From positions 1-61,614 of the IMG/VR virus record IMGVR_UViG_3300021957_006329: a DNA stretch of 61,614 bases. The stretch is one strand, 5' to 3'. The position numbers and the translations under genes were made by a program. The notes below the pieces were generated by a model that was not told where the DNA came from, searched no databases, and worked only from the letters and a program-made list of their open reading frames with translations. Positions 268 to 39,034 of this stretch are shown here, one piece after another. The DNA comes from a virus. The stretch's first letter is position 1; the number at the start of each line of letters is the position of its first letter.

Positions 268-423
268 ATGAAGATAAGATCAACAATACGCGCCAAAGGC
301 ACTCAGCCTCATCCACGCAAGAACAAGACACTGCCACGCAAGCACAAGCATCGTGGATGGGCGTACGACCTAGGATTCAGCACAGGCGTTGTGGCCGGCA
401 CGATCAAAAACACAATCAGTTAA
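268..423 (+). CDS. hypothetical small basic protein (51 aa)
   Basis: Not recognised. ATG 268 to TAA 421-423. The N-terminal half is strongly basic, with an alternating Pro/Arg/Lys/His stretch, followed by a small Gly/Ala/Val segment (GFSTGVVAGT). It could bind nucleic acid, but nothing specific shows that. Its promoter repeats that of the preceding gene, so the two small genes are probably expressed together early in infection. Confidence 0.55.
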   Translation: MKIRSTIRAKGTQPHPRKNKTLPRKHKHRGWAYDLGFSTGVVAGTIKNTIS

Positions 424-436
424 CCAAGGAGAATAT

Positions 437-631
437 ATGTACACAATATTGAGAGGCAAAACCGCAGTGATCGACTGCGACACATTACCAACAGCGATCA
501 GGTTCGTTCAGAGTCTGGAGAGTGGATTGAACAGACACAAGAGTCATTCACCATACACCATCGTCAAGACCAGCAACTTGAGTCCGGACATCAACACCAA
601 TCATTCGCCTCGAATGACAGCAGCAGAATAA
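437..631 (+). CDS. hypothetical protein (64 aa)
   Basis: Not recognised. I chose ATG 437 over the in-frame ATG at 389 because AGGAGA lies 5 nt upstream (427-432) and because the longer frame would overlap the gene ending at 423. The product is short and soluble, with a beta-rich N-terminus (MYTILRGKTAVIDC). It is one of the few genes here with a classical ribosome binding site and lies 13 nt downstream of the preceding stop, so it is probably co-transcribed with it. Confidence 0.6.
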   Translation: MYTILRGKTAVIDCDTLPTAIRFVQSLESGLNRHKSHSPYTIVKTSNLSPDINTNHSPRMTAAE

Positions 632-634
632 AAG

Positions 635-663
635 TTGACCATCACAACGATATAGAATACAAT
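635..663 (+). promoter_or_regulatory. sigma70-type promoter with normal leader
   Basis: TTGACC, a 17-nt spacer and TACAAT. The expected start near 670 leaves a leader of about 40 nt carrying AAAGGAAAG before ATG 712. In this it differs from the leaderless promoters elsewhere in the window. Confidence 0.6.
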
Positions 664-711
664 ATAAGAATAATCAGGCAATCAAGCCATCAATCAAACA
701 AAAGGAAAGTT

Positions 712-1059
712 ATGAAGAAGTCTCGCAAAACCAAACATTTTTACTCACTCAACAACGCCGCTGGCGCACCAGTCAACATCGACCTGAACAACTACAAAGT
801 GACTTGTGTCAAGACTGGCAAGAGCAAAAGCTTCTATCACAAATACCTGTTCAATCTGATCAGTCGCAAGTACGAAGGCAACATCGATCTGTTCCGCACC
901 ACATATCAGAGCAGAGAAGCGGCTCCTTCTCGCGAGGATCGACGCAAGCAACAACTCCAAGAAAGAATCAACAAACTGTTCGTTCAGATCAGCAACCTCA
1001 AAGGAGAGTTGGCAGAGATCGACAGCGGAGTGCAACACTTTCCTCTGGCCAACAAATAA
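712..1059 (+). CDS. hypothetical protein (115 aa)
   Basis: Not recognised. The ATG at 712 follows a good ribosome binding site (AAAGGAAAG, 701-709). The basic N-terminal half has a possible HKYLFNL-type helix. The C-terminal 40 residues are a predicted coiled coil rich in Glu, Gln, Lys and Leu (ERINKLFVQISNLKGEL), so the protein may form dimers. The gene has its own sigma70-type promoter and is followed by a strong terminator, making it a single-gene early unit. Confidence 0.65.
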   Translation: MKKSRKTKHFYSLNNAAGAPVNIDLNNYKVTCVKTGKSKSFYHKYLFNLISRKYEGNIDLFRTTYQSREAAPSREDRRKQQLQERINKLFVQISNLKGELAEIDSGVQHFPLANK

Positions 1060-1082
1060 CTTTCTTCCATAACTGATCCTGT

Positions 1083-1123
1083 GAGGGGCTGGTGAAATCC
1101 AAGTAACCAGCCTCTCCTTTTTT
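1083..1123 (+). terminator. intrinsic terminator
   Basis: GAGGGGCTGGT (1083-1093) pairs with ACCAGCCTCTC (1106-1116), with one G-U pair and a 12-nt loop, followed by a run of six T. It lies 24 nt after the stop at 1059. Confidence 0.85.
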
Positions 1124-1135
1124 CACCTTTTATAG

Positions 1136-1164
1136 TCGACAAAATCATCAACAGTTCATACAAT
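1136..1164 (+). promoter_or_regulatory. sigma70-type promoter, leaderless geometry
   Basis: TCGACA, a 17-nt spacer and TACAAT, ending 6 nt before ATG 1171. Confidence 0.55.
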
Positions 1165-1170
1165 TATATC

Positions 1171-1635
1171 ATGAAGACAATCACATTACTACTCACGGCA
1201 ATCATCATAGGATTGAACGCACATGCTGATGACACATTTGTACCATCACATCGACTAGCAGCTGAGCTCAGGTTTGAAGCCCACAGAGCAGGTGAATCGT
1301 TTGAGGATCACACACCAGCGTTACCATCACTGACAGCTGACACCAGACAATTGTACAAGGATCGTACTCAAGCCAACACCGATCGACGAGTCGGTGCCAT
1401 GCTGGCCAAGTATGAACAACAGTATGTCAAACACACTCAACAAGATCAGACAATTGATCAGACAATCGCTGAACAGATCAATCAACTGCAACAGACAATT
1501 GACGACCAGAACAAATTGGCCCAACAACAACAAGATTCAAATCTGGCTCGAGCTGCCATTGGTGGTGGCGGATTGTTAGCAGGTGCAGCGAGCGCAGGGT
1601 TGTTTTTCAGAAGGCGCAAGCAGCTAGCTAGCTGA
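1171..1635 (+). CDS. exported coiled-coil protein with C-terminal membrane anchor
   Basis: The family is not recognised. The N-terminus is a clear signal peptide: Lys at position 2, a hydrophobic core (ITLLLTAIIIGL) and a likely cleavage after AHA near residue 19. The middle is hydrophilic and helical, with a Gln-rich coiled coil at about residues 85-125. The C-terminus has a Gly/Ala-rich membrane segment (GGGGLLAGAASAGLFF) followed by RRRK. This resembles bacterial tripartite C-terminal sorting signals, but no motif identifies a class. The protein probably sits in the host envelope, and a role in superinfection exclusion or spanin-like lysis is possible but unproven. It is transcribed from its own promoter. 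Confidence 0.65.
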   Translation: MKTITLLLTAIIIGLNAHADDTFVPSHRLAAELRFEAHRAGESFEDHTPALPSLTADTRQLYKDRTQANTDRRVGAMLAKYEQQYVKHTQQDQTIDQTIAEQINQLQQTIDDQNKLAQQQQDSNLARAAIGGGGLLAGAASAGLFFRRRKQLAS

Positions 1636-1641
1636 CCAACA

Positions 1642-1717
1642 GCTGAGACACTGACACTGTCTCAGAAGCCCCTCCGCTGAGTCACCGGGTGTGAAACTAT
1701 GTGATAGATGCGGAGGG
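1642..1717 (+). terminator. two tandem hairpins, possible terminator region
   Basis: CTGAGACA (1643-1650) pairs with TGTCTCAG (1658-1665). CCCTCCGC (1670-1677) pairs with GCGGAGGG (1710-1717) around a 32-nt loop. Only a short T run follows directly, but AT-rich sequence with runs of T lies at 1746-1771. This 220-nt stretch between genes holds nothing else recognisable. Confidence 0.45.
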
Positions 1718-1846
1718 TTTGGTGTGTTGAAATAAGTGCATGGGAAAATTTTTTGCGCAATTTTTTTTATATTTTGTACATTAGGTTTTGCCTCCCCCAC
1801 GACCTGAGCGGAGCGAATTAATACATTGCATCTCAGAATTTCGTAC

Positions 1847-1854
1847 ACTAAATA
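1847..1854 (+). promoter_or_regulatory. late promoter box ACTAAATA
   Basis: A T4-type late box ending 5 nt before ATG 1860. Confidence 0.6.
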
Positions 1855-1859
1855 ACCAC

Positions 1860-2213
1860 ATGGAACAGCATGTCGAATACATTGGATACCTCGCAGGATT
1901 GTTGAGTCTGATCACGTGGTTACCACAATTACAGACCGTGTGGATCAGGCGAGATCACCAGACACTCGATCCACGTGGGGCCTGGCCACTCAGCCTGTCA
2001 CTCATCAGCTGGGGTGTGTACGGCACGATCACTCACAACTGGTGGTTGCTCATCGGGTGCATCATCGGATTGACCATGACTCTCAGCATGATCTATCGGA
2101 TTCGAACACTCAGAAAACAGCATGCCGACAGAAACGACCCATTGTCCGCTCACGCCGGCTACAAACTCACACATGTGGAACGTCGACGTGGCTGGAGCCA
2201 ACCGGACTGGTGA
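1860..2213 (+). CDS. SemiSWEET/PQ-loop family membrane protein
   Basis: 117 aa with three predicted membrane helices at about residues 5-20, 43-60 and 63-85, the triple-helix unit of SemiSWEET and PQ-loop transporters. Helix 1 carries the family Pro-Gln signature in TWLPQLQTVW, and helix 2 (SLSLISWGVYG) has the small-residue and aromatic pattern of the family. In bacteria these proteins form homodimers that move small sugars across the inner membrane. The hydrophilic C-terminal tail of about 30 residues is longer than usual. The start at 1860 is fixed by a late box 5 nt upstream; an in-frame ATG at 1788 would lengthen it without family support. Transport of a sugar is inferred from the family only. 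Confidence 0.75.
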   Translation: MEQHVEYIGYLAGLLSLITWLPQLQTVWIRRDHQTLDPRGAWPLSLSLISWGVYGTITHNWWLLIGCIIGLTMTLSMIYRIRTLRKQHADRNDPLSAHAGYKLTHVERRRGWSQPDW

Positions 2214-2285: not shown

Positions 2286-3047
2286 ATGAAAATTGCACAT
2301 ATCATCAATGTATTTGAAATACACGAAAAACACAAGGCAAATTATTTGCACATAGCACAACCTGTCACAATTCAAAGCATGATAGATGCTAGAAATAATT
2401 CAAACGAGGGGCTTGGGGTGGATTTGTATGCAGTAACGGATAGGAATGAAACGGTGGATATGCCCGACGAGTTTACCATGACGAAGGATTTGCAGAGGTG
2501 TTGTTATGATGTTATTGACACTTTACCGAAAACGAAGTCGTTTCCACTTATTGGTGATATTTTGGAAAGTTTATATCATGCGTCTGATGCAGATTATTTT
2601 ATTTATACAAACACTGACATTGGGTTGTTTCCAAATTTTTACGATTTCGTTGAAGAAAAAATAAATGAAGGATTCGATGCTCTTTGTATCAATCGTAGAG
2701 ATATGCCAAAGAAAGTGACTGGTGAAATAATTGATGAACATAATTTTCAAAAAGTATTTGATTTGAAGGGTATATTTCATCCTGGGAAAGATTGTTTTGT
2801 TTTTAAGAGAAGTTTGGTTAGTCGGATGAAATTGGGAAATGTGTTTCTCGGGGCCCCTCCGGTGGGTGGTTTCTTGTTAGACAATATTAAAAGAAATGCG
2901 ACTAATTTTACTTTGATCAACGGCACGAGTATCGCGGTTCCACGACTGGTTACATTTCATCTTGGTCGCGACCGCGATTGGAAGAGGCGGAAGAATGAAT
3001 ATTGGGTGGAAAACAGGCGACAAGCAAAGCTTTGCGGCTTTGGATGA
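2286..3047 (+). CDS. putative glycosyltransferase-like protein (GT-A type)
   Basis: 253 aa. The segment YFIYTNTDIGLFPNFY (about residues 99-114) looks like the nucleotide-sugar and metal-binding strand of GT-A glycosyltransferases, with an N-T-D in place of the usual D-x-D. Further hydrophobic strands flank it. No membrane segment or signal is present. The start codon overlaps a TATAAATG sequence, and GAGAG lies just upstream. It opens the sulfotransferase and sugar gene run that follows, which supports a role in glycan assembly. The exact family and substrate are not known to me. Confidence 0.5.
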   Translation: MKIAHIINVFEIHEKHKANYLHIAQPVTIQSMIDARNNSNEGLGVDLYAVTDRNETVDMPDEFTMTKDLQRCCYDVIDTLPKTKSFPLIGDILESLYHASDADYFIYTNTDIGLFPNFYDFVEEKINEGFDALCINRRDMPKKVTGEIIDEHNFQKVFDLKGIFHPGKDCFVFKRSLVSRMKLGNVFLGAPPVGGFLLDNIKRNATNFTLINGTSIAVPRLVTFHLGRDRDWKRRKNEYWVENRRQAKLCGFG

Positions 3048-3095: not shown

Positions 3096-3103
3096 TATAA
3101 ATA
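3096..3103 (+). promoter_or_regulatory. late promoter TATAAATA
   Basis: Exact T4-type late box, 7 nt before ATG 3111, ahead of the first sulfotransferase gene. Confidence 0.7.
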
Positions 3104-3110: not shown

Positions 3111-3764
3111 ATGATCAACCATGAACATAAATTTATTTTCATACATGTACCACGGACAAGTGGTAGCAGTATTGAACTGCAGTTCGGTTACAACGATTTA
3201 GACCCCAGGAGGTCCGCGGCACGCGGCTGCAAACATGCCGGGAACTTACACCAGAAACATTGGACGTTGAAACAATGGAAGCAACATCTGGATGCATCTA
3301 CATTTGAGGGATATTTCAAGTTCACAATTGTTAGAAACCCATGGGATCGTATGATAAGCAAATATTGTGCCCCTGGTGATTTCGGTCCAATTGGATTACT
3401 CGCAGGTAAATCGCTGAAATATTTTCTAAACAGATATCATCATCTATCAAATCTGAATAATATAGGTCGATGTAACAGGTGGTTGAACTGGGAACATGGA
3501 GAGACTCTAGTCGATTATTTTGACCCGGAGCAGATGGACTATGTTGGTCGATTTGAAACTCGGGAAGAAAGCTTGGATTATATATCACAAAAAATAAATT
3601 TTCCACTGGACCGTAATGTTCAATTCCGGGAATGTCAAGCTAATATCAAACGTAAGAATGTGGGTCATCACTACACCAAATACTACGATGATGAGACTCG
3701 TGAAATAGTTGCACGACGTTACGCACAGGACATCGAGTTGTTCGGGTACGAATTTGGTAAATAA
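3111..3764 (+). CDS. sulfotransferase (Sulfotransfer_2-like), paralogue 1
   Basis: 217 aa. The N-terminus HKFIFIHVPRTSGSSIE is the PAPS 5'-phosphosulfate-binding loop of the heparan/carbohydrate sulfotransferase family. FTIVRNPWDRMISKY, at about residue 75, is the 3'-phosphate-binding motif. The C-terminus ends with the block HYTKYYDDETREIV and DIELFGYEF, which all five neighbouring genes share. Such enzymes move sulfate from PAPS to a sugar hydroxyl. Cellular homologues are often Golgi proteins, but this one is soluble. It is the first of five tandem paralogues and the most diverged from copies 2 and 3 in the middle. The acceptor is unknown but probably a phage- or host-made glycan. Confidence 0.85.
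   Translation: MINHEHKFIFIHVPRTSGSSIELQFGYNDLDPRRSAARGCKHAGNLHQKHWTLKQWKQHLDASTFEGYFKFTIVRNPWDRMISKYCAPGDFGPIGLLAGKSLKYFLNRYHHLSNLNNIGRCNRWLNWEHGETLVDYFDPEQMDYVGRFETREESLDYISQKINFPLDRNVQFRECQANIKRKNVGHHYTKYYDDETREIVARRYAQDIELFGYEFGK
3756..3763 (+). promoter_or_regulatory. late-like box GGTAAATA
   Basis: The box overlaps the stop codon of paralogue 1 and ends 6 nt before ATG 3770. The AAATA-ctaac-ATG pattern matches the boxes of paralogues 3 and 4. Confidence 0.4.
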
Positions 3765-3769
3765 CTAAC

Positions 3770-4399
3770 ATGAGATGTTCATTCAAACATAAATTTATAT
3801 TTATACATGTACCGAAAACCGCTGGTTCGAGTATCGATACACGGTTGAATGGTTTTAATGATTTAAAATCACTATACAAACACGAAGGTATTCCATTCGT
3901 CAAAAATGTTACAATGAGCCGGGAATATATACAAACTATACCTGCTCACATTAGTTCTCGCGAGTTGAAAGCGGTGCTAGGGCAAAAGTATGACAACTAT
4001 TTTAAATTTGCGTTTGTGAGGGACCCATGGGATTGGAAGCTATCGACATACAAATATATACTCAAAAACCGGAAACATCCGGCACATGAAACATATAAAA
4101 AATTCAAAAGCTTCCATAACTATATAATCGCAACACCACACCGACCACGACAACAGTCTGATTACATATACTCTACAGATGACAAACCACTGGTTGATTA
4201 TGTAGGTCGATTCGAACAGCTGCAAAAAGACTTCACCGATATTTGTAAAATTATTGGTTTACATAATAGTAAACTTCCACACAAAAACAAAACAAACCAT
4301 AAACACTACACCGAATATTACAATGATGAAACAAAACAAATTGTTACGGAACGATACGCACGTGACATCGAGTTGTTCGGGTACGAATTTGGTAAATAG
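3770..4399 (+). CDS. sulfotransferase (Sulfotransfer_2-like), paralogue 2
   Basis: 209 aa, starting 5 nt after paralogue 1. It has the PAPS loop FIFIHVPKTAGSSID, the 3'-phosphate motif FAFVRDPWDWKLSTY and the common C-terminal block ending DIELFGYEF. Three segments are base-for-base identical to paralogue 3: 3962-4041, 4117-4234 and 4355-4442. The stretches between them are well diverged. That mosaic pattern points to recent gene conversion or partial duplication. The N-terminal and linker regions that differ are the likely acceptor-specificity parts. The function follows from the family; the acceptor is unknown. Confidence 0.87.
   Translation: MRCSFKHKFIFIHVPKTAGSSIDTRLNGFNDLKSLYKHEGIPFVKNVTMSREYIQTIPAHISSRELKAVLGQKYDNYFKFAFVRDPWDWKLSTYKYILKNRKHPAHETYKKFKSFHNYIIATPHRPRQQSDYIYSTDDKPLVDYVGRFEQLQKDFTDICKIIGLHNSKLPHKNKTNHKHYTEYYNDETKQIVTERYARDIELFGYEFGK
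3962..4041 (+). repeat. 80-bp direct repeat, copy 1 (copy 2 at 4651-4730)
   Basis: Identical 80 bp inside paralogues 2 and 3, covering the region up to and including the RDPWDWK 3'-phosphate motif. Confidence 0.95.
4117..4234 (+). repeat. 118-bp direct repeat, copy 1 (copy 2 at 4806-4923)
   Basis: Identical 118 bp inside paralogues 2 and 3. It encodes the region from NYIIATPHRPRQQ to RFEQLQKDF. Confidence 0.95.
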
Positions 4400-4442
4400 T
4401 GTTCACTATATAACCAAAATAATGTATAAATACTAACATGAT
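4355..4442 (+). repeat. 88-bp direct repeat spanning gene end, promoter and next start, copy 1
   Basis: Identical to 5044-5131. The unit holds the last codons of one sulfotransferase, the 38-nt spacer with a TATAAATA late box, and the first codon of the next gene. Confidence 0.95.
4425..4432 (+). promoter_or_regulatory. late promoter TATAAATA
   Basis: Exact late box ending 5 nt before ATG 4438, inside the duplicated 88-bp unit. Confidence 0.75.
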
Positions 4443-5088
4443 CTTTTCGCAAAAGCATAAGTATATTTTTGTACATATACCAAAAACCGCCGGTACCAGT
4501 GTCAGTCGACTATTACGACCATCAGCTACACAGGGTAATCAATTTGATATCAATTATTTGAAGTTATTGTGTAAACATGAAGGTGTTTCGTATGTTAGAC
4601 CGACCAATTCGGTTTTTATAAAAACAGGACCTAATCATATATCTGCTGGGGAGTTGAAAGCGGTGCTAGGGCAAAAGTATGACAACTATTTTAAATTTGC
4701 GTTTGTGAGGGACCCATGGGATTGGAAGCTCTCAAATTATAAATATGTACTCAAATGTCATGGTCATAGAGCACATAAACTTTATGCATCATATAAGAAT
4801 TTTCGTAACTATATAATCGCAACACCACACCGACCACGACAACAGTCTGATTACATATACTCTACAGATGACAAACCACTGGTTGATTATGTAGGTCGAT
4901 TCGAACAGCTGCAAAAAGACTTCGATACAGTCTGCGACGAAATAGGTATACCACAACAACAACTCCCGCACAAAAATGCTACAAAACACAAACACTACAC
5001 CGAATTTTATGATGAAGAAACACGAGAAATTGTTGCGGAACAGTACGCACGTGACATCGAGTTGTTCGGGTACGAATTTGGTAAATAG
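4438..5088 (+). CDS. sulfotransferase (Sulfotransfer_2-like), paralogue 3
   Basis: 216 aa. It has the PAPS loop IFVHIPKTAGTSVSR, the 3'-phosphate motif FAFVRDPWDWKLSNY and the common tail HYTEFYDEETREIV with DIELFGYEF. It shares three perfectly identical DNA blocks with paralogue 2, and its downstream spacer repeats the one upstream of it. The region after the PAPS loop is unique. Its own TATAAATA box lies 5 nt before the ATG, so each copy can be transcribed separately late in infection. Confidence 0.87.
   Translation: MIFSQKHKYIFVHIPKTAGTSVSRLLRPSATQGNQFDINYLKLLCKHEGVSYVRPTNSVFIKTGPNHISAGELKAVLGQKYDNYFKFAFVRDPWDWKLSNYKYVLKCHGHRAHKLYASYKNFRNYIIATPHRPRQQSDYIYSTDDKPLVDYVGRFEQLQKDFDTVCDEIGIPQQQLPHKNATKHKHYTEFYDEETREIVAEQYARDIELFGYEFGK
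4651..4730 (+). repeat. 80-bp direct repeat, copy 2
   Basis: Identical to 3962-4041. Confidence 0.95.
4806..4923 (+). repeat. 118-bp direct repeat, copy 2
   Basis: Identical to 4117-4234. Confidence 0.95.
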
Positions 5089-5131
5089 TGTTCACTATAT
5101 AACCAAAATAATGTATAAATACTAACATGAT
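5044..5131 (+). repeat. 88-bp direct repeat, copy 2
   Basis: Identical to 4355-4442, including the TATAAATA box and the first bases of the following gene. Confidence 0.95.
5114..5121 (+). promoter_or_regulatory. late promoter TATAAATA
   Basis: Exact late box ending 5 nt before ATG 5127, a duplicated copy of the box at 4425. Confidence 0.75.
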
Positions 5132-5759
5132 AATATCACATAAACATAAGTATATTTTTGTAAAAACAGCAAAAGTTGCAGGGACATCAGTTGAAATTTT
5201 TTTCCAGCAAATGTCATTTGAAGGCGCACCTCAACATAGTTGTGCGATGATAGACAATGAGGATGGTATAGTAGGTTCTCGTGGTGATCTTTTCTCTCAA
5301 GGACTCAAAGGAGTTGAATGGAAGAATCATCATACATTACCTAGAATTAAAAAATTACTCGGTAATGATAAAATGTTTAATGAGTATTTTAAATTTAGCG
5401 TCACAAGAAATCCATGGGATCGTGTTGTTTCTAAATTGCATCATAAAAAATCTCTTGCTACATACGGTACGAATCCGTTGGCCGCGGGTGGACCGAAACC
5501 AATAGTAGATTATTTTGGAGATTTTATAGACGATGTACACTTTATAAGGTTTGAAAATTTACAGGAAGATGTTGAATATGTTTGTGAGAAACTAGGTCTT
5601 GATTATGACATGAATAATCTTGGTACATACAAAAGCGATCACCGGGAACATGCGAGACACAAACACTACACCGAATACTACGATGATGAAACTCGTGACA
5701 TTGTTGCAAAAAAATATGCAAAAGATATTGAGTATTTCGGTTATAAATTTAGAGAATGA
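5127..5759 (+). CDS. sulfotransferase (Sulfotransfer_2-like), paralogue 4
   Basis: 210 aa. The PAPS loop is YIFVKTAKVAGTSVEIF, a variant with AKVAGTS in place of PKTAGTS. The 3'-phosphate motif is FSVTRNPWDRVVSKL, and the common tail ends DIEYFGYKF. The middle, about residues 40-75, is unlike the other copies. It lies behind the duplicated spacer and late promoter but shares no long identical DNA with copies 2 and 3 beyond its first bases, so it is an older paralogue. Its base composition is more AT-rich than paralogues 1-3. Confidence 0.84.
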   Translation: MIISHKHKYIFVKTAKVAGTSVEIFFQQMSFEGAPQHSCAMIDNEDGIVGSRGDLFSQGLKGVEWKNHHTLPRIKKLLGNDKMFNEYFKFSVTRNPWDRVVSKLHHKKSLATYGTNPLAAGGPKPIVDYFGDFIDDVHFIRFENLQEDVEYVCEKLGLDYDMNNLGTYKSDHREHARHKHYTEYYDDETRDIVAKKYAKDIEYFGYKFRE

Positions 5760-5762
5760 GAA

Positions 5763-6365
5763 ATGATTAGTCATAAGCATAAATGTATTTTCCTACATAT
5801 CCCTAGATGTGGAGGTACTTCAATTGAAATAACTTTATGTGGGAAAAATTGGTTTAATGTAGATAGAACAACAAAACATCTTATCGGTTCAACTGCAAAA
5901 AAAATATACGAACCTTACTGGGATGATTATTTTAAATTTTCTTTTGTAAGAAATCCGTGGGCCAGAACAACCTCTCTTGGAAAATATTCCAGATTTTTTG
6001 GAGTTTCATTACAAAAAGGTAAGATTAATTTTGGAAGATATTTTGACAAATTTTACCCATTAGAAATAGATCACAGAAGTAAAAGCCATGAGGATTCATT
6101 TGACCCCATTGAAAATGCAATTTACCTTAATATTCTTAATGTGAAACTTGACTTTATTGGAAAATTTGAAAATTTACAACAAGACTTTAACATTGTTTGT
6201 GATCAAATAGGTATCTCTCATCAAAAGCTTGTTCATGCTGAAAAATCTACCGATAAAAATTACAATAAACACTACACCGAATATTACGACGATGAAACTC
6301 GGCAAATCGTTGCGGAAAAATACGCAAAAGATATTGAGCATTTCGGTTACAAATTTGGAGAATAA
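5763..6365 (+). CDS. sulfotransferase (Sulfotransfer_2-like), paralogue 5
   Basis: 200 aa, starting 3 nt after paralogue 4 and so probably translated from the same message. The PAPS loop is CIFLHIPRCGGTSIEI and the 3'-phosphate motif FSFVRNPWARTTSLG, with Ala in place of the usual Asp. The tail HYTEYYDDETRQIV and DIEHFGYKF is shared. GGAG near its stop codon may serve as the ribosome binding site of the next gene. Last of the five-gene array. Confidence 0.84.
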   Translation: MISHKHKCIFLHIPRCGGTSIEITLCGKNWFNVDRTTKHLIGSTAKKIYEPYWDDYFKFSFVRNPWARTTSLGKYSRFFGVSLQKGKINFGRYFDKFYPLEIDHRSKSHEDSFDPIENAIYLNILNVKLDFIGKFENLQQDFNIVCDQIGISHQKLVHAEKSTDKNYNKHYTEYYDDETRQIVAEKYAKDIEHFGYKFGE

Positions 6366-6370: not shown

Positions 6371-6934
6371 ATTAAAATCACTTTATTAGGTAATTGCCAA
6401 ACTATGGCATTGACATTTTATTTGCAGCAATTAAATAAAGATTTTGATGTTCAATGGATTCAATTGCATGGCGAATTAGGAAAGAAAATAGCATCAGAAG
6501 CAAATCACTGGGGCAAAAAGATAACGAAAATAAGTTCTATAGAAACTGGCATAGACAGGTTACAACAGTCAGATTATGTAATATTTCAACATTTAAGACT
6601 CAACACTAGCCCTCATTACAATTTAAAACAACTCAAAAAACATGTCACCAGAGGAAAATTAATTTCTATAAGTTCATTTTTTTACGATCCCAATGACCCA
6701 GACCAAAAATACCTCAAGAGTATGATAAGAAAAGCCGAAAGATTGAATATAGATATTCCTGCTCATAAAATCATAGAAAAACATGGTTCTAAAATTAAAA
6801 TTCAGAAAATAAACCACCCGCAGGTTTTTTATTTTCTAGAACTTGTGCGTGAAATTTGTGCAAAAACAGGCTGGAATTATTATTCCGACGAACAATACAA
6901 TCAATATTTAAAAGAAGGATATCCTTTTGGTTAA
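6371..6934 (+). CDS. WcbI-like polysaccharide biosynthesis protein, apparent AUU start
   Basis: The frame is open from 6371 and reads IKITLLGNCQTMALTFYL. This is the conserved N-terminal strand and GNCQ loop of the WcbI family, which acts in capsule polysaccharide synthesis. The only upstream start candidate in this frame is ATT 6371, since TAA lies just before it. ATG 6404 would cut off the GNCQ motif. A GGAG lies 10 nt before the ATT. So either AUU is the start or the gene has lost its ATG. The rest shows alternating strands and helices with no membrane segment. Length is about 187 aa. A second family member is at 42773-43687. The function is inferred from the family. Confidence 0.65.
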   Translation: MKITLLGNCQTMALTFYLQQLNKDFDVQWIQLHGELGKKIASEANHWGKKITKISSIETGIDRLQQSDYVIFQHLRLNTSPHYNLKQLKKHVTRGKLISISSFFYDPNDPDQKYLKSMIRKAERLNIDIPAHKIIEKHGSKIKIQKINHPQVFYFLELVREICAKTGWNYYSDEQYNQYLKEGYPFG

Positions 6935-6948
6935 CTATATATATTAGC

Positions 6949-7605
6949 ATGAGCATAAATTTATACACGTCCTATTATATTGATCAGGTTTCGATACGAC
7001 AACAAGAAATTGAATTGTGTATAAAGAAAAACTTGAATAACGATGCAGTTGATAAAATTTACATACTTGCTGAACCTGGTTCATGGGATATGAGGGATGG
7101 TAATCATGCGATATGTGATTCGAAATTAACTATCATCACACATGATCAACCCACATACAGTCACTTTTTTGAAATAAGCAACTCTCTGACCGGGGAGGAT
7201 GATATCAATATAGTCGTGAATAGTGACATTTACCTAGGGGATAACATACAGGATATATCATCTTTAGTTGACCATGATACTGTCGCATGTATATCCAGGT
7301 GGGAAAGTGAAGATGAGTTACAGGACCGGCCCCGCGGGGATAGCCAAGACACATGGGCATGGCGAGGTCGGATTAAAACCCCAGATAGTTGTAACTTTAA
7401 TCTAGGTGTCCCGGGATGCGACAACCGGATTGCATGGGAGTTAGCCAATGTAGGTTATCAATTGATAAATCCATGTCAAACGGTTAAAACATTTCATGTA
7501 CATGATTCAAAGATCCGGAACTATAGTGTTGCTAAAGCAATATCCCCTCCGCACCTATTTGTACCATATGGTAAGATTACACAATTGCCCGGGGAGGGTG
7601 AATAG
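6949..7605 (+). CDS. glycosyltransferase-like protein with SQDTW motif
   Basis: 218 aa. ATG 6949 was chosen because the longer frame from 6856 overlaps the WcbI gene. INIVVNSDIYLGDNI resembles a GT-A donor-site strand. Further on come the motifs SRWE, SQDTWAW, GVPGCDNRIAWEL, NPCQTVKTFHVH and IRNY. The same SQDTW...NP...IKTLHMH order is seen in the protein at 40976-41845, so the two are related. They lack a classical family name known to me. The context between a WcbI-like gene and rfbB supports a role in glycan assembly. Confidence 0.6.
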   Translation: MSINLYTSYYIDQVSIRQQEIELCIKKNLNNDAVDKIYILAEPGSWDMRDGNHAICDSKLTIITHDQPTYSHFFEISNSLTGEDDINIVVNSDIYLGDNIQDISSLVDHDTVACISRWESEDELQDRPRGDSQDTWAWRGRIKTPDSCNFNLGVPGCDNRIAWELANVGYQLINPCQTVKTFHVHDSKIRNYSVAKAISPPHLFVPYGKITQLPGEGE

Positions 7606-7626: not shown

Positions 7627-8559
7627 ATGAAAAATATATTGGTAACGGGTGGGCTAGGTTTTATTGGAAGTAATTTCATAAAACATATATTCAACAAGTA
7701 TGACTATCATATTCACAATGTTGATCTTAAAACATATGCTGCGAGCTATGATAATATAAATGAAGAGATCAAGAAATCTGGAAGATACACACTGTCTATT
7801 TGTGATATCAATGACACAAATCGTGTTCGAAACTTAATCCATAAAAATAATATAAATTACATTGTTAATTTTGCGGCTGAAAGCCATGTAGATAACAGCA
7901 TAAACAATTCGACTCCATTCATTCACACCAACATCAACGGCACACACTCATTATTAACATTGCTACATGATTGTCCAAGTGTCGAGAGATACCTTCAAGT
8001 GTCCACAGACGAAGTGTACGGGAGTTTAAGCGAAGAAGATGAGGCTTTTACCGAAAACAATCCATTGCAAGCAAATAGTCCTTATTCTGCAAGTAAGGCT
8101 AGCGCAGATTTATTGTGTCGCAGTTTTTATGAGACTTTCAATTGTCCTATTTTAATTACTCGCTGTTCCAACAATTATGGTCCAAATCAACACGAAGAGA
8201 AATTGATTCCATTGATGATAAAAAATGTCAAGTCCGGTAAAAAACTTCCGGTTTATGGTGATGGGAGAAACATTCGCGACTGGATTCATGTCTCAGATCA
8301 TTGCTCTGGTATCGATGCAGTTTTACATGGAGGTAAAATTGGTGAAGTTTACAATATTGGGGGTAAGAATGAAGTCCGGAACATTGATATTGTCAAAACA
8401 ATTCTCGAACTACTAGGTAAAAATGAAGATCAAATTGAATTTGTGAAAGATCGATTGGGTCATGATTGGCGTTATGCAATTGATAATGGTAAAATTCAAA
8501 ATGAATTGAATTGGTTCCCTAGTGTATCCTTTAAGGATGGATTGAAAGAATTAATATGA
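7627..8559 (+). CDS. rfbB: dTDP-glucose 4,6-dehydratase
   Basis: 310 aa, a short-chain dehydrogenase of the extended type. The NAD-binding loop GGLGFIGSN is at residues 8-16. STDEVYG carries the catalytic Thr-Asp-Glu, and YSASKAS is the Tyr-x-x-x-Lys active site. NNYGPNQ, near residue 180, is typical of RmlB. The enzyme turns dTDP-glucose into dTDP-4-keto-6-deoxyglucose, precursor of rhamnose and of amino-deoxy sugars. The other rml genes are not in this window, so the final sugar is unknown or uses host enzymes. The protein is about 30 residues shorter than most RfbB, at the C-terminus. Confidence 0.9.
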   Translation: MKNILVTGGLGFIGSNFIKHIFNKYDYHIHNVDLKTYAASYDNINEEIKKSGRYTLSICDINDTNRVRNLIHKNNINYIVNFAAESHVDNSINNSTPFIHTNINGTHSLLTLLHDCPSVERYLQVSTDEVYGSLSEEDEAFTENNPLQANSPYSASKASADLLCRSFYETFNCPILITRCSNNYGPNQHEEKLIPLMIKNVKSGKKLPVYGDGRNIRDWIHVSDHCSGIDAVLHGGKIGEVYNIGGKNEVRNIDIVKTILELLGKNEDQIEFVKDRLGHDWRYAIDNGKIQNELNWFPSVSFKDGLKELI

Positions 8560-8809: not shown

Positions 8810-9103
8810 ATGAAACATCTGGGGCAATTGTTGAGCAAGTTGCGTGGGTTGAACATTTTCAACTCGTTACCCACCGGGCAAGAACAGGTGCACTGGTTAG
8901 AGCATCTGGACGAGACTGTGGAGCTGTTGCGACAGGATCGAGAGGAGATCCTCGAGTGGATCTCCCATGAGGTGAAACGTGCAGAATTCAATGCTCACAA
9001 GTACCGGGGTATGGAAGATGTGGGTTATTACACCGACAAGGTTAAACTGTTCAAACGATTACAACAACATCTAGAACTATTGTTGACACCTGGTTCGTTA
9101 TGA
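8810..9103 (+). CDS. hypothetical helical protein (97 aa)
   Basis: Not recognised. It is almost entirely predicted helix, with Leu and Glu heptads (WLEHLDETVELLRQDREEIL) and no membrane segment. It starts 5 nt after the small membrane protein gene, suggesting a shared late transcript and possibly a shared complex. Confidence 0.6.
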   Translation: MKHLGQLLSKLRGLNIFNSLPTGQEQVHWLEHLDETVELLRQDREEILEWISHEVKRAEFNAHKYRGMEDVGYYTDKVKLFKRLQQHLELLLTPGSL

Positions 9104-9134
9104 TACTATAGGTGTTGATTTGTTGGACGTATCG

Positions 9135-9142
9135 ATTAAATA
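9135..9142 (+). promoter_or_regulatory. late-like box ATTAAATA
   Basis: Ends 8 nt before ATG 9151. One mismatch from TATAAATA and wider spacing than most. Confidence 0.4.
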
Positions 9143-9150
9143 GACACAAC

Positions 9151-9456
9151 ATGAACAGCGAACAACTAGAGGCTCATGCGGTAGATGCTATAAAACCTTA
9201 CACACAGGACATATATGTTGGACCTGACATCGAGACAGAGTGCATGGATCAAATATTGAATCCAACCACAGACGAACTCATGTACTTGCGACCGGTAACA
9301 AATACCGGTCGGCGTGTGATTGTGGCCAAGCTCAAGCATGTGGATGATTTGAAATCTATTAGCAAAGAGTTGATACCCATGTGTTTTGCTATCGGTCATT
9401 GTGTGAGCAACCCACGCCTCGAATGTGTGGTTAAATGGTACAATCTGGGTGAGTAA
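9151..9456 (+). CDS. hypothetical protein (101 aa)
   Basis: Not recognised. I chose ATG 9151 over the in-frame start at 9112 because an ATTAAATA box lies just upstream of it. Mixed alpha/beta protein with no membrane segment. The segment MYLRPVTNTGRRVIVAKL suggests paired beta strands. It overlaps the start of the next gene. Confidence 0.6.
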   Translation: MNSEQLEAHAVDAIKPYTQDIYVGPDIETECMDQILNPTTDELMYLRPVTNTGRRVIVAKLKHVDDLKSISKELIPMCFAIGHCVSNPRLECVVKWYNLGE

Positions 9457-9757
9457 AGCCTGGATCAAGCAGGCTAGTGTAGGTTATCAATCTCAGCGAT
9501 TGGACTCACTACTGGGTGGTGAAGATCATTGTTACAATGTGTGGCATGAACCCACCGGTGTTGTGTTGATGTACAAAAAACCACCAGGAGAAGACCTTGT
9601 ATATCGTGGGCAATTGGCCGTGGGGCCCAACTTCGAAAAATATTATACTGATTCTAGAATATCCAAATTAGCACCATTTGTAGCGGAGTTGATAGAGTCT
9701 CGTCGCAACTACATGAAACCTAAAAAAAAGCGTCGCAAGACTAAAAACGTCTCATGA
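9425..9757 (+). CDS. hypothetical protein with basic C-terminus (110 aa)
   Basis: Not recognised. The frame starts with ATG 9425, but a GTG at 9449 that overlaps the end of the upstream gene (GTGAGTAA) is an equally good start. The central part is beta-rich (CYNVWHEPTGVVLMYK). The last 20 residues hold a run of Lys/Arg (KPKKKRRK), which could bind nucleic acid. The 3' end overlaps the convergent minus-strand gene by 17 nt. Confidence 0.55.
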   Translation: MWLNGTIWVSKAWIKQASVGYQSQRLDSLLGGEDHCYNVWHEPTGVVLMYKKPPGEDLVYRGQLAVGPNFEKYYTDSRISKLAPFVAELIESRRNYMKPKKKRRKTKNVS

Positions 9758-10055
9758 TCTCACTCACTATTCTGTTCAAATTACCGGCCCAAAATTTGCG
9801 CGCTCTTATGTGATATGGTCTAGTGTCACTGATCAGCACTCCGGATTCTAGGTCCGGAGCCACAATATCATCGACAAAGTCAAAAGCTCCGCGGAGCTTC
9901 AAGTAGTTGTAGCAAGTGTCCTTGATATGATCATCCACCTGTATCACCACATCCACCTGTTTGAACACCTGAGCATACAAAGTCACATCTCGAAAACAGC
10001 TGGTGCTAGAAGGTGGAAATACCAGATTACCATCTATCAATAAAACCCTGCTCAT
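9741..10055 (-). CDS. hypothetical protein (104 aa)
   Basis: Not firmly recognised. It begins MSRVLLIDGNLVF, a hydrophobic strand followed by an acidic loop, and later has VVIQVDDHIKD and GVLISDTRP. This alternation of strands and acidic loops recalls Rossmann-like folds such as HAD or PIN, but the catalytic pattern is incomplete. It has its own late box, and its promoter region is shared back to back with the APS-kinase-like gene on the other strand. Confidence 0.55.
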   Translation of the reverse strand: MSRVLLIDGNLVFPPSSTSCFRDVTLYAQVFKQVDVVIQVDDHIKDTCYNYLKLRGAFDFVDDIVAPDLESGVLISDTRPYHIRARKFWAGNLNRIVSEIMRRF

Positions 10056-10064
10056 AACCTATTA

Positions 10065-10072
10065 TATTTATA
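10065..10072 (-). promoter_or_regulatory. late promoter TATAAATA (minus)
   Basis: Exact box on the minus strand, 9 nt before ATG 10055. It is divergent from the plus box at 10081. Confidence 0.6.
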
Positions 10073-10080
10073 CAATTATA

Positions 10081-10088
10081 TATAAATA
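10081..10088 (+). promoter_or_regulatory. late promoter TATAAATA
   Basis: Exact late box ending 5 nt before ATG 10094. Confidence 0.75.
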
Positions 10089-10093
10089 CTGTA

Positions 10094-10930
10094 ATGAAAA
10101 GAAAAATTCTAATAATGGGTTTACCGGGTAGTGGAAAGACCACACTGGCTGAATTGTTGGTGCCTAGAATAGGCGCGGCATGGTTTAATGCAGATGCTGT
10201 CCGGCAAGAGATTAGTTCAGATCTTGGTTTCGAAGAAAAGGATCGATTAGAACATGCGCGGAGGATGGGTAAGATGGTAGAGTTTGCAAGTAAGTATGGT
10301 ACATTTGCTGTCGCTGACTTTGTATGTCCCACCAAAAAGGCTCGTGAGCTGTTTGATGCAGATTTTACAATCTGGGTCGATCGGATCGAAGAAGGAAGAT
10401 TCAAAGACACAAACAAGATGTTTGAAAAACCGGAAGGGGCTGATCTAGTGCTACGTGACGGTACACCACAAGAGTGGTTGGAGCAAACAATGGAGCTACT
10501 TCAACCAGAGATGTGGGACAATCAAGCACCTACCGCTCTTTTGATTGGTAGATATCAACCTTTTCATCTAGGTCATAAGACGTTGGTAGAAGAGGCTTTG
10601 AGACGTAGTGGTCAGGTATGCATAGCCCTGCGAGACGTTGGAGGAATAGATGATTCTAACCCGTATAACTTTGAACAGGTGAAAAGGGAAATTCTAGAGT
10701 CATGCTCGGAGTTCGGTAACAAAATCAAGGTTATTGAGATACCAAACATATCGGATGTTTTTTATGGTCGTGGAGTTGGTTACAATATTGAAATGTTGGA
10801 ACTAGACAAAGAAATACAGGAAATATCTGCAACTAAGATACGCAAAGGTGATATTGATCAAAATGGTAACAAGTTAAAGAACACCGGTGGGAAGAACCCA
10901 TTCACTGGTATCGGTATTCAACCAGATTAA
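10094..10930 (+). CDS. APS-kinase-like / nucleotidyltransferase fusion protein
   Basis: 278 aa in two domains. Domain 1 (1-135) has the Walker A loop GLPGSGKTT (9-17), then FNADAVRQEI and DLGFEEKDRLEHARRMG. This last stretch closely follows the APS kinase pattern (DLGFsxxDRxENIRRxG), so phosphorylation of adenylylsulfate to PAPS is a reasonable prediction. Domain 2 (about 147-255) has GRYQPFHLGH (152-161) and ISATKIR (244-250), the two signature motifs of the HxGH nucleotidyltransferase superfamily that includes NMN adenylyltransferase and ATP sulfurylase. The pairing resembles PAPS synthetase in layout, but the second domain is closer to the NMNAT type. A polynucleotide or nicotinamide-related kinase role is the main alternative. 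Confidence 0.75.
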   Translation: MKRKILIMGLPGSGKTTLAELLVPRIGAAWFNADAVRQEISSDLGFEEKDRLEHARRMGKMVEFASKYGTFAVADFVCPTKKARELFDADFTIWVDRIEEGRFKDTNKMFEKPEGADLVLRDGTPQEWLEQTMELLQPEMWDNQAPTALLIGRYQPFHLGHKTLVEEALRRSGQVCIALRDVGGIDDSNPYNFEQVKREILESCSEFGNKIKVIEIPNISDVFYGRGVGYNIEMLELDKEIQEISATKIRKGDIDQNGNKLKNTGGKNPFTGIGIQPD

Positions 10931-11139
10931 TTGTAACCTGGGTATGTGCAACGAGGTTTTACATTATTAGCCTCTACATACGCATCCAAGAGAGCACGTT
11001 CTTGTAAGTAGCTACTCCTAGAATATGCGAATATATAATATTTGTTAGCGACAATTATACAAGCTAAGCTAGTTATGTCATACAACCATACTATGGTAAC
11101 AAAAGGTAACACTGTAAACACCCATACGATAATTTTCAT
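10927..11139 (-). CDS. small membrane-anchored protein (70 aa)
   Basis: Not recognised. It has an N-terminal membrane helix (IIVWVFTVLPFVTIVWLY), probably extending into ITSLACIIVA, then a basic hydrophilic tail. The stop overlaps the stop of the convergent plus gene (TTAA, 10927-10930). A strong minus-strand promoter, TTGAAT-N17-TATAAT, ends 6 nt before the ATG, and this is the main evidence that the gene is real. Confidence 0.6.
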   Translation of the reverse strand: MKIIVWVFTVLPFVTIVWLYDITSLACIIVANKYYIFAYSRSSYLQERALLDAYVEANNVKPRCTYPGYN

Positions 11140-11145
11140 ATCTAT

Positions 11146-11174
11146 ATTATAGTATATTGTTGAAAATTATTCAA
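11146..11174 (-). promoter_or_regulatory. sigma70-type promoter (minus), leaderless geometry
   Basis: TTGAAT, a 17-nt spacer and TATAAT, ending 6 nt before ATG 11139. The -35 region overlaps that of the divergent plus promoter. Confidence 0.75.
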
Positions 11175-11188
11175 TAGTAATATATAAT
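11160..11188 (+). promoter_or_regulatory. sigma70-type promoter, leaderless geometry
   Basis: TTGAAA, a 17-nt spacer and TATAAT, ending 7 nt before ATG 11196. Confidence 0.75.
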
Positions 11189-11195
11189 AACTATT

Positions 11196-11483
11196 ATGAA
11201 TGAAGCAATCAAAACAGCAATCAAGGGGGTATATTATGAGTTTTGTGGTAAACGTATGCAAGCAATTGCAGATCTAGACATACTGTTACAGCAAACAGTA
11301 GGGGTGGGAGACCATACAGACATATGTAAGGATATCAAAAATAAATATGAAGAGATTGACAAATATAATAGTCTGTTAGATACCATGAACGAGCAACATC
11401 ATGACATCACCATGGGAGAAACAGACCAACGGAAAGCTCAAGAACCTGCGAAAGATTGCGGGGATGACTGTGGATGTGATTAA
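11196..11483 (+). CDS. hypothetical protein with C-terminal Cys cluster (95 aa)
   Basis: Not recognised. It is mostly helical and acidic, ending with CGDDCGCD, a three-Cys cluster that could hold a metal or disulfide. It has a strong sigma70-type promoter with the predicted +1 next to the ATG, so it is probably an early gene. Confidence 0.65.
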   Translation: MNEAIKTAIKGVYYEFCGKRMQAIADLDILLQQTVGVGDHTDICKDIKNKYEEIDKYNSLLDTMNEQHHDITMGETDQRKAQEPAKDCGDDCGCD

Positions 11484-11498
11484 AAGTTAATGTTCTAG

Positions 11499-11506
11499 CA
11501 TAAATA
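11499..11506 (+). promoter_or_regulatory. late-like box CATAAATA
   Basis: Ends 8 nt before ATG 11515. Confidence 0.5.
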
Positions 11507-11514
11507 TACTTGAT

Positions 11515-12450
11515 ATGAACGAAGATGTAAACAATATTTTTTCCGGTTACAAGAAGATGCTCAATGAAAATGTACCTGCACCCGCGGCACCTGCGGCACC
11601 TGCGGCACCTGCTGCTGACGCTAGCCAAGCAATAGCCCAAGCGGAACAATTGTTATCTAATGGACCTGGACAAGATGCTGCTACATTACAGCAACAAGTG
11701 CAAGCGCTCACAACAGCGCAACAGGCGATCGCGCAACAAGTAGAACAACTCAATTTGCAGCGCGACAAGGTCGCTGATCAAGCAGCCAAAGGAATGGCTG
11801 TTCCAATGGACCCTAGCGGTCAAACACAAGTTGAAGCTCAAATTCAAAAATTGAACGACGGTATGACACAGTTGAGCCAATTAGCTCAAACTATAATAGG
11901 ACCCGCCCAACAAATGGGAGTTGATGTAAGTCCGTTGATGGAGTCATTAAATGAACTGTTTCAAGTGCTACAAGAATGTGCTAATTGGTATGTCAAGTGC
12001 TTGATACCGGAAAACGATGGAGCTTCTCTCACCAAGAGACATCAGCTCAAGTGTATGATTTTTGAAAATACAATTCCAACTGTAGAGGCTAGCCGGGAAG
12101 ATCGAGTCAAATCACAAAATGATATTATGAAACAAGATTTAGAAGATGAAGAGCCAGAATATTCAGCTCTTGATATGCTGGGTTTAGAGCCGGATGATTT
12201 TGGTCATGAAGATCCAGATCAAGCTGCTATGGATCGAATGGACGCTGAAGATGATACAGTTGACCTGGCCAACCATGACAGACCATCCAACGGACCAGAA
12301 GATGGTTTGATGGATGATATACATGCACTGGAACGTTTGTTAGATGATGAAACCAAAGCTGTGATGGATGATGAAGATGGAGCGGTTTCCCGGAGGGAAG
12401 CTCGTGAAATCGCCAAAGATATCATCAAGCAAATGATAGATAGACTTTAA
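11515..12450 (+). CDS. hypothetical acidic protein with Ala/Pro linker (311 aa)
   Basis: Not recognised. Residues 1-20 are a short helical head. An Ala/Pro repeat follows, with PAAPAAPAAP at about 22-33. Next comes a Gln/Ala-rich coiled coil (about 45-130) and a conserved-looking core with LIPENDGASLTKRHQLKCMI near 160-180. The C-terminal 120 residues are very acidic. The late box and this build would suit a virion-associated or scaffold-type protein, but there is no direct evidence. Confidence 0.6.
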   Translation: MNEDVNNIFSGYKKMLNENVPAPAAPAAPAAPAADASQAIAQAEQLLSNGPGQDAATLQQQVQALTTAQQAIAQQVEQLNLQRDKVADQAAKGMAVPMDPSGQTQVEAQIQKLNDGMTQLSQLAQTIIGPAQQMGVDVSPLMESLNELFQVLQECANWYVKCLIPENDGASLTKRHQLKCMIFENTIPTVEASREDRVKSQNDIMKQDLEDEEPEYSALDMLGLEPDDFGHEDPDQAAMDRMDAEDDTVDLANHDRPSNGPEDGLMDDIHALERLLDDETKAVMDDEDGAVSRREAREIAKDIIKQMIDRL

Positions 12451-12452
12451 TG

Positions 12453-12481
12453 TTGCCTATAATATAGTGTTATCATACTAT
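12453..12481 (+). promoter_or_regulatory. sigma70-type promoter, leaderless geometry
   Basis: TTGCCT, a 17-nt spacer and TACTAT, ending 6 nt before ATG 12488. The -10 is weak; the call rests on the spacing. Confidence 0.5.
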
Positions 12482-12487
12482 AATTGT

Positions 12488-12805
12488 ATGAGCACAACAC
12501 AATTACACATCACACTAGAACAAATGAACGAGTGGGCCTCGATCAATGGACGCGCACCTAGTACTAAATACAAAGACATACAATATTTCATCAGCACCAT
12601 GGAAGTGGTACCACCTAAACAATTGATGAAACAATTGAGAAGACTAGTTGTTGATGAAGGTGTGGATCCAGAAGATATCATTACATGGATAATGGACGAA
12701 GAGAAAGATGAGCAGCATGCATACAACATCAGATTATCTGAAATATTCAAACTTGTTTACACACCGGTGGTTGTAGACAATTGTGTGTTAGATGGTTTAA
12801 TCTAG
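12488..12805 (+). CDS. hypothetical protein (105 aa)
   Basis: Not recognised. I chose ATG 12488 over an upstream GTG because a promoter-like TTGCCT-N17-TACTAT ends 6 nt before it. It is a helical, acidic protein (MNEWASINGRAPSTKY, MDEEKDEQHAYNIRLSEIF). It could be a small regulatory protein, but nothing specific is seen. Its 3' end overlaps the convergent gene by 9 nt. Confidence 0.6.
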   Translation: MSTTQLHITLEQMNEWASINGRAPSTKYKDIQYFISTMEVVPPKQLMKQLRRLVVDEGVDPEDIITWIMDEEKDEQHAYNIRLSEIFKLVYTPVVVDNCVLDGLI

Positions 12806-13123
12806 ATGTTCAAGCTGAGAGAAGGGTACATCAAATAGTGTAGATTCATCACTCAATTCTATTGTTGCTGTCATGTCCTTTTCATCTACATCTACCACAT
12901 TCACCACATCTCCAGTTTCTATATAAGTGGCTTGATCACCGGACATGAACCCGGAGAGCTCTTCTTCAAAAAAACTAGCATACGACAAGCGAGTGTTCGG
13001 ATTACCTCTCCTGGCTAGTTTAGGAGTGAACTGGTCAATCCCGGTACTCATTCTACCATGACTGTGACCTTCTTTGTATAGGTTGTACATACTAGTGTCA
13101 TCATTTGTGTAATCTGCTGTCAT
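12797..13123 (-). CDS. hypothetical protein (108 aa)
   Basis: Not recognised. The N-terminal half is polar and likely flexible. The C-terminal 50 residues (TYIETGDVVNVVDVDEKDM onwards) look like a small beta-barrel of SH3/KOW type. An exact TATAAATA box 6 nt before the ATG marks it as a late gene. Confidence 0.6.
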   Translation of the reverse strand: MTADYTNDDTSMYNLYKEGHSHGRMSTGIDQFTPKLARRGNPNTRLSYASFFEEELSGFMSGDQATYIETGDVVNVVDVDEKDMTATIELSDESTLFDVPFSQLEHLD

Positions 13124-13129
13124 GTTAAT

Positions 13130-13137
13130 TATTTATA
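13130..13137 (-). promoter_or_regulatory. late promoter TATAAATA (minus)
   Basis: Exact box ending 6 nt before ATG 13123. Confidence 0.7.
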
Positions 13138-13179
13138 TTTAAAGCTGTACATTCAACCGGTTATTGTATATAATAACGT

Positions 13180-13542
13180 ATGGCCAGAAAAACAAAAAAG
13201 CTCAAGTGTATAGTTACAGGTAGAGAGTTGGTATTATCTAAAGATTATTATCAATCCAAATTAGACAAATGTGACGGTGATGAGGATGTATTACACGCCA
13301 GTTACATATGCAAAGAAGCAAAAGATTTACTCAAGAGAGGTTACGATGTTGGTAAAACTAGAGATCTTTTAGGTATTGATGACCCGGAGTTGGGGGAAGT
13401 AGACTCAAAATTAGTCGAAGAAATTCAAAACGAATCTCGTCTAAGACATCGGAATATACCACGTTTCAACATAAATAACTACACGTCAGCCAAAACAGAT
13501 CCTGACGTGACTGAATTTTTAAACCGAGTATTGAAACAATAA
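13180..13542 (+). CDS. hypothetical protein (120 aa)
   Basis: Not recognised. It has a basic N-terminus (MARKTKKLKCIVTGRELV) and two Cys at about residues 10 and 31 that do not form a full zinc site. The remainder is helical. A TATAAT-like sequence ends 5 nt before the ATG, without a good -35. It starts a two-gene run with the gene at 13544. Confidence 0.6.
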   Translation: MARKTKKLKCIVTGRELVLSKDYYQSKLDKCDGDEDVLHASYICKEAKDLLKRGYDVGKTRDLLGIDDPELGEVDSKLVEEIQNESRLRHRNIPRFNINNYTSAKTDPDVTEFLNRVLKQ

Positions 13543-27183: not shown

Positions 27184-27192
27184 GGTCAATAT

Positions 27193-27200
27193 TATTTAAT
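27193..27200 (-). promoter_or_regulatory. late-like box ATTAAATA (minus)
   Basis: 9 nt before ATG 27183; one mismatch and wider spacing. Confidence 0.4.
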
Positions 27201-27227
27201 ACAGCGTTAATGTTTAACAACTCCAGA

Positions 27228-31467: not shown

Positions 31468-31475
31468 TATTTAGG
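31468..31475 (-). promoter_or_regulatory. late-like box CCTAAATA (minus)
   Basis: Ends 7 nt before ATG 31460 and overlaps the upstream stop codon. Confidence 0.4.
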
Positions 31476-38300: not shown

Positions 38301-39034
38301 TGAATGATTTCTAGTTCCTTAATTATCATTTGATCCCATGCAGACAAGTTAGAAAAATCCACACCATACATTGCTATCTTAGCTCCACTATATTTATTTT
38401 TGATATATAATGCAGTGGCCGCTTCTACCCCAGGTATCCTACCAGTAGAAGGGTCATAGTGAGAGGTGTAATACTTTATATCCATTGTTTTAAAGCTTCT
38501 ATAATCACCATACACCCATGTTTTCTTGAGCACTTTTTGCTTATTATAAGCATCCCGGGTATATATCATAATATTATTATTTCCGGTATGTTGGGTGCAA
38601 TATTTACCCATATTATAATCTACTACATACATCCCATGTCCTTGAGCCTTGGCTGTATTATAATCGCCGAGAATAGGATATACATTATCAAACATTGATA
38701 GTTTTCGATTGTCAGTAGATTTAATACTACCAGTTATAAGAACTGTTGTTTCTGGGTTTAAATCAGTATATTTTGAACAATTCTCGATAGTTGTATCTAT
38801 TTTAGTACCGAATCGTTGATCCCATCTTTTCAAGACAGTGCTAATATTATCAAATCTACTAGTATATCTATTCTCCTGAGGGACTGCTTCCGGAAGTTCT
38901 TTAACTATATCACTTTTAGATTTTGTATATTTAGTATTTTTTTTGTAATTTAACTTCGTATATAGTTCATCTAAAACTTGCTGTTTTAGCTTCTCTTCAG
39001 CATCAGTTAACTTATCAGAATTATTTGCAGTCAT
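38291..39034 (-). CDS. hypothetical glycan-related protein, sialyltransferase-like C-terminus
   Basis: 247 aa. ATG 39034 is used; a TTG two codons earlier is possible. The first 80 residues are charged and helical. The C-terminal half has [11 protein letters not shown], then [19 protein letters not shown] and [12 protein letters not shown], a pattern like the S-x-G...A-L-Y...I-x-x-x-G-x-D-F of sialyltransferase-type GTs (GT29/GT42). The similarity is short, so the call is tentative. The gene lies between gmd and a GT2-like gene. Confidence 0.45.

Follow-up and report, generated by a model that had tools for sequence, protein, structure and literature searches.

The sulfotransferase array

The window analysed here is a complete IMG/VR virus record, a linear fragment of 61,614 bases. 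Five adjacent open reading frames, S1 to S5, occupy positions 3111-6365 of its + strand and are separated by intergenic gaps of 5, 38, 38 and 3 nt. S1 (3111-3764, +; 217 aa; PF03567 E-value 4.1e-16) carries the loop VPRTSGSS and the 3'-phosphate motif VRNPWDRMIS. The corresponding elements are VPKTAGSS and VRDPWDWKLS in S2 (3770-4399, +; 209 aa; 2.7e-16), IPKTAGTS and VRDPWDWKLS in S3 (4438-5088, +; 216 aa; 8.3e-17), TAKVAGTS and TRNPWDRVVS in S4 (5127-5759, +; 210 aa; 4.0e-12), and IPRCGGTS and VRNPWARTTS in S5 (5763-6365, +; 200 aa; 2.3e-12). All five lie above the curated cut-off of the Sulfotransfer_2 profile PF03567 (47-63 bits against 22) and match PHROG 3347 (2e-16 to 4e-28). ORF calls, Pfam and PHROG 3347 therefore confirm the array of five adjacent sulfotransferase genes proposed in an earlier sequence-only reading, which had suggested such an HMM search. 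A six-frame search of the whole record recovered the same places and no further PF03567 gene. The name Galactose-3-O-sulfotransferase is only the annotation of PHROG 3347.

The N-terminal 5'-phosphosulfate loop (P-K/R-x-x-G/S-T/S-S) is complete in S1, S2, S3 and S5. In S4 the Pro is missing while the Lys, Gly and Ser are retained, and the claim that each gene carries a PAPS loop thus holds for four copies and for a divergent fifth. The loop Lys is present in S2, S3 and S4, whereas S1 and S5 have Arg in its place. All five copies contain the R(N/D)PW motif, attributed to 3'-phosphate binding by the same reading, as well as the Arg and Ser of the motif R-x-P-(x5)-S. Across 81 aligned viral sequences (S3 numbering), R91 is found in 81, S99 in 79, E156 in 78 and H67 in 77; position 16 is K or R in 80 of the 81 (Arg in 14), and several C-terminal positions are also nearly invariant. 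S1-S5 keep the PAPS-binding Arg and Ser, the conserved His and Glu and the C-terminal block. H67, located between the two motifs, is a candidate catalytic residue of this family.

The C-terminal block was initially noted as a feature shared by the five genes. It is present in all of them but is not specific to the array: matches to the PF03567 profile extend to its final position (252/252) and bacterial relatives carry the same block patterns, so that it corresponds to the C-terminal signature of the family itself. Similarly, the linker regions differ between most pairs of copies, as had been observed, except that S2 and S3 share part of theirs letter for letter.

The AlphaFold (AF2) model of S3 (pLDDT 90.4, pTM 0.87) adopts a PAPS-sulfotransferase fold. 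Its best 50 PDB matches are all PAPS sulfotransferases (best E-value 6e-3, which is modest; probability up to 0.99), a result obtained for this one copy. Most named matches below 1e-3 in a viral structure library are phage and giant-virus sulfotransferases. By sequence search alone, the PDB gave no significant match. S3 shares its fold with heparan sulfate 6-O-sulfotransferase (5t03) and other solved PAPS sulfotransferases (probability up to 0.99), but with approximately 14% identity, a TM-score of about 0.5 and a different acceptor region. Profile, motifs and the predicted fold of S3 support the assignment of S1-S5 as PAPS-dependent Sulfotransfer_2 enzymes, and the conserved residues together with this fold make cofactor binding likely. 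The window copies resemble PF03567 and PHROG 3347 members in their near-full-length profile match, PAPS loop, 3'-phosphate motif, C-terminal signature and fold; they differ in being short (200-217 aa) and in forming a group of five adjacent genes.

Origin of the array

In a tree of 172 viral sulfotransferases, S2 and S3 group together (SH-aLRT 100) and are 70% identical at the amino acid level. S1 is closest to a sulfotransferase from a different virus (L001, 61-68%), the nearest relatives of S5 also belong to other viruses (L057/L030), and S4 has no close kin. A simple in situ five-fold duplication was therefore rejected, and the initial description of the five genes as paralogues fits the close S2/S3 pair but not S1 and S5, whose closest relatives lie in other viruses. 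In the tree, S2 and S3 are the only recent duplicates of the array.

These two genes share exact DNA tracts, all on the + strand and all at a single offset of 689 nt. An 80-nt tract covers the 3'-phosphate site (3962-4041 in S2, 4651-4730 in S3) and a 118-nt tract lies in the linker (4117-4234 in S2, 4806-4923 in S3). An 88-nt repeat spans the 3' end of S2, the 38-nt spacer and the start of S3 (4355-4442), with a copy over the end of S3, the spacer and the start of S4 (5044-5131). The exact S2/S3 tracts are separated by stretches with 50-70% synonymous differences, and identical codons are clustered beyond chance (permutation, about 0.002). S2 and S3 form a DNA mosaic, with recombination between them; their order carries the caveat that an assembly of short reads can make a join within the 118-nt tract. 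Since the 88-nt copies, each including a gene end, spacer and start codon, flank S3, recombination between them would insert or delete a complete gene.

Exact tracts of at least 50 nt, most of them close to the 3' end, connect otherwise diverged copies in 5 of the 232 pairs taken from one record and in 4 of the 14,333 taken from two records (counts from which overlapping-ORF artefacts, in L018, L022 twice and L007 once, were taken out by hand). A strong within-genome homogenisation of the whole C-terminal block, defined by alignment columns, was rejected because its mean effect is slight (codon identity 0.615 against 0.573), the long exact tracts being the sole conspicuous signal.

The S2/S3 mosaic, the divergent loop of S4 and the Arg replacing Lys in S1 and S5 would be expected if only some copies were active, the others serving as a recombination reservoir or representing decaying duplicates. 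We consider this very improbable: none of the five frames is interrupted, each copy retains the Arg/Ser, His and Glu residues, and a loop Arg also occurs in 14 of the 81 aligned sequences.

Genomic context

The array is surrounded by genes of sugar metabolism. Downstream, a gene at 7627-8559 (+) encodes an NDP-sugar 4,6-dehydratase/epimerase (PF16363, 1.9e-78; PF01370, 5.2e-61); a homologue is present at 18 of the 77 viral loci with sulfotransferases. The ORF at 6404-6934 (+) shows a weak, below cut-off similarity to the WcbI-like polysaccharide enzymes (PF18588, 0.0017). Two further ORFs resemble glycosyltransferases by eye only: one at 2286-3047 (+), with no Pfam or PHROG match, and one at 6856-7605 (+), which has a conserved counterpart (54%) in L001, a syntenic relative. 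A second glycan island is located at 36698-48639 (-) and includes GT2, GT8-like, GDP-mannose dehydratase, a second epimerase, WcbI and RgpF genes. Glycosyltransferases, methyltransferases and epimerases are the Pfam families most often assigned to 100 ORFs located near viral sulfotransferases; NeuB and WcbI are present as well. The ORFs of a comparison set, near PhoH, include PTPS, a sigma factor and GTP cyclohydrolase. The nucleotide-sugar and polysaccharide-type neighbours support a glycan context for the array and, with it, the carbohydrate setting assumed at the outset. The phage setting is likewise borne out by the IMG/VR record and by T4 gp15-like and gp5-like tail genes, which indicate a T4-like myovirus.

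The window also includes a QueD-like PTPS gene (54667-55296, -) and a GTP cyclohydrolase gene (58835-59479, +), which suggest 7-deazaguanine synthesis and possibly DNA modification. These QueD- and FolE-type genes, and the link between phage sulfotransferases and base modification mentioned where PMC10829341 cites Iyer 2013, would suit an acceptor other than a glycan, such as hypermodified DNA bases, protein tyrosines or a small molecule. We regard such an acceptor as quite improbable, because the immediate neighbours are nucleotide-sugar and polysaccharide-type genes and no TET/JBP or hydroxymethyl-base enzyme was found among the scanned proteins or the listed neighbour families.

Two repeats occur elsewhere in the window. 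A 38-nt exact direct repeat lies in one ORF region (18192-18229 and 18684-18721), with a third copy of 23 nt at 18420-18442, and 24-nt tandem repeats end a tail-region ORF (31475-31558).

Distribution of sulfotransferase sets in other viruses and bacteria

All 43 IMG/VR records holding a relative contain PF03567 matches (1-11 each) and 20 of them contain at least five, although split genes account for a few of the matches and the patterns used for searching, drawn from the C-terminal block, favour multi-copy records. By comparison, 5 of 44 PhoH-bearing viral records taken as a control have an above-cut-off match, with one copy each. In the multi-copy uncultured viruses (G001, G014, G037, G038, G042 and G088), up to 8-11 matches are found per record and are often clustered, and several such records share with the window the presence of exact DNA tracts common to diverged copies. 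However, their copies are usually interleaved with other genes, and the longest adjacent run seen outside the window is four (G088, 27019-29601). Multi-copy sets are thus not unique to the window, while its five strictly adjacent genes exceed the longest run seen elsewhere. An exact 40-mer search of IMG/VR found no close relatives of the array, and a megablast against phage records gave no match.

Of the 50,697 annotated phage records, 3 gave a sequence match. One public record, that of an uncultured 484-kb phage, carries an adjacent sulfotransferase pair (LR756508.1, 312825-314022). The same family or fold is present in cultured phages, all tailed: Stenotrophomonas phage DLP6, Synechococcus phage S-T4, Prochlorococcus phage P-SSM7 and Ralstonia phage phiRSL1, the last three known here from the listed protein alone. 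DLP6 has one recognisable copy, approximately 25-29% identical, beside replication genes and outside any sugar island, and structure-based matches include single, more distant sulfotransferases annotated in cultured cyanophages. Bacterial relatives are widespread (31-40% identity), with at most two adjacent copies in 80 loci. Phage sulfotransferases have been listed as auxiliary genes (PMC12285232, PMC8290583), with a function that "remains unclear" (PMC10580990). The original statement that a five-copy array is not known in phages was therefore too strong, given the single genes of cultured phages and the multi-copy sets common in uncultured relatives of the window, although we found no paper describing such arrays among the openly licensed literature searched.

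Turnover of the island

Locus L001 belongs to a 222-kb record and matches the gene order of the window on either flank (window 389-2213 and 8810-13542, approximately 31-81% amino acid identity). Between these flanks it carries four sulfotransferases together with other genes, and has in common with the window only homologues of S1 and of 6856-7605, in a changed order. In another record (G016, locus L298), the second glycan island of the window is largely conserved. A two-sulfotransferase cassette (L298, 12064-13269) lies there exactly between the orthologues of window genes 40976-41845 and 41848-42768, which in the window are 2 nt apart with no cassette between them. A 26-kb contig from another sample, 99.1% identical, confirms the second island of the window and stops short of the array. 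Comparison of these genomes shows the S1-S5 island to be hypervariable, its content turning over between related viruses.

Expression and PAPS supply

The motif TATAAATA, the T4 late-promoter consensus, occurs on the + strand 7 nt before S1 (3096-3103) and 5 nt before the start codons of S3 (4425-4432) and S4 (5114-5121). It is found 22 times in the window against 7.9 expected, and AATAAATA lies before gp15. Other TATAAATA copies (61458-61465, 58783-58790 and 10081-10088) are located 5-6 nt before non-sulfotransferase genes. A T4-type late promoter specific to sulfotransferases was rejected, since the motif is not enriched before them in relatives (10/173 against 63/855). The short spacing could correspond to near-leaderless late messages, or the 5-8 nt distance to the ATG could instead mirror translation initiation. 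Judging from these motifs, the island is probably expressed late.

The same enzymes and sugar context, and the distant relatives found in many bacteria, would equally fit a sulfation of surface glycans on the infected host (LPS, capsule), which might serve, for instance, to block superinfection or the re-adsorption of progeny. This seems to us rather unlikely: the late-promoter-like motifs before S1, S3 and S4 better fit the timing of virion production, and much of the sugar pathway is phage-encoded.

No canonical gene for PAPS synthesis (APS kinase plus ATP sulfurylase) could be recognised in the window, itself a fragment, by scans lacking a dedicated ATP sulfurylase model. A gene at 10094-10927 (+) encodes a fusion of APS-kinase-like and NMN-adenylyltransferase-like (NMNAT-like) domains (GRYQPFHLGH, ISATKIR; phrog_10255). 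Besides being conserved in this lineage of viruses, the fusion also occurs in certain 56-kb Stenotrophomonas, Xanthomonas and Clavibacter phages. Sulfotransferases accompany it in 11 of 12 records of its close clade and in 1 of 14 of the distant clade, so that its presence tracks the lineage rather than the sulfotransferases, and its candidacy as PAPS supplier was rejected. Elsewhere, a full-length APS kinase (7.5e-52) occurs in a viral record (G041:C1:126139-126567), with a sulfotransferase approximately 13 kb away.

A possible role in virion glycan sulfation

Taken jointly, these observations lead us to propose, with about as much confidence as doubt, that the array belongs to a recombining, probably late, hypervariable island of a marine T4-like myovirus, and that S1-S5 sulfate phage-made glycans, most likely on the virion. 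The five genes would be transcribed together with virion genes, probably late in infection, and the infected host would supply PAPS. The enzymes might each sulfate different hydroxyls of sugars built by the dehydratases and glycosyltransferases of the phage itself. The position- or sugar-specific sulfation and the masking of receptors suggested at first would be conceivable roles. The acceptor would most likely be a glycan on virion proteins, giving the particle a surface that is anionic and can readily be varied. The island would change by gain, loss and recombination of sulfotransferase cassettes, and for this reason the sulfation pattern could evolve quickly. A bolder and rather doubtful extension is that marine T4-like phages in general bear virions with a combinatorially sulfated glycan, an analogue of heparan-type sulfation codes, in which up to about ten sulfotransferases, with cassettes shuffled through homologous tracts, would render the surface chemistry virus-specific.

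The occurrence of multi-copy, hypervariable islands in uncultured marine phages suggests that sulfated glycans are a common and rapidly changing trait of viruses; glycan sulfation by viruses appears to be widespread and has hardly been studied. Islands of the S1-S5 type provide a concrete set of enzymes open to testing. If the glycans are indeed carried by virions, their sulfation would have a bearing on adsorption, on particle charge in seawater and on phage-host coevolution.
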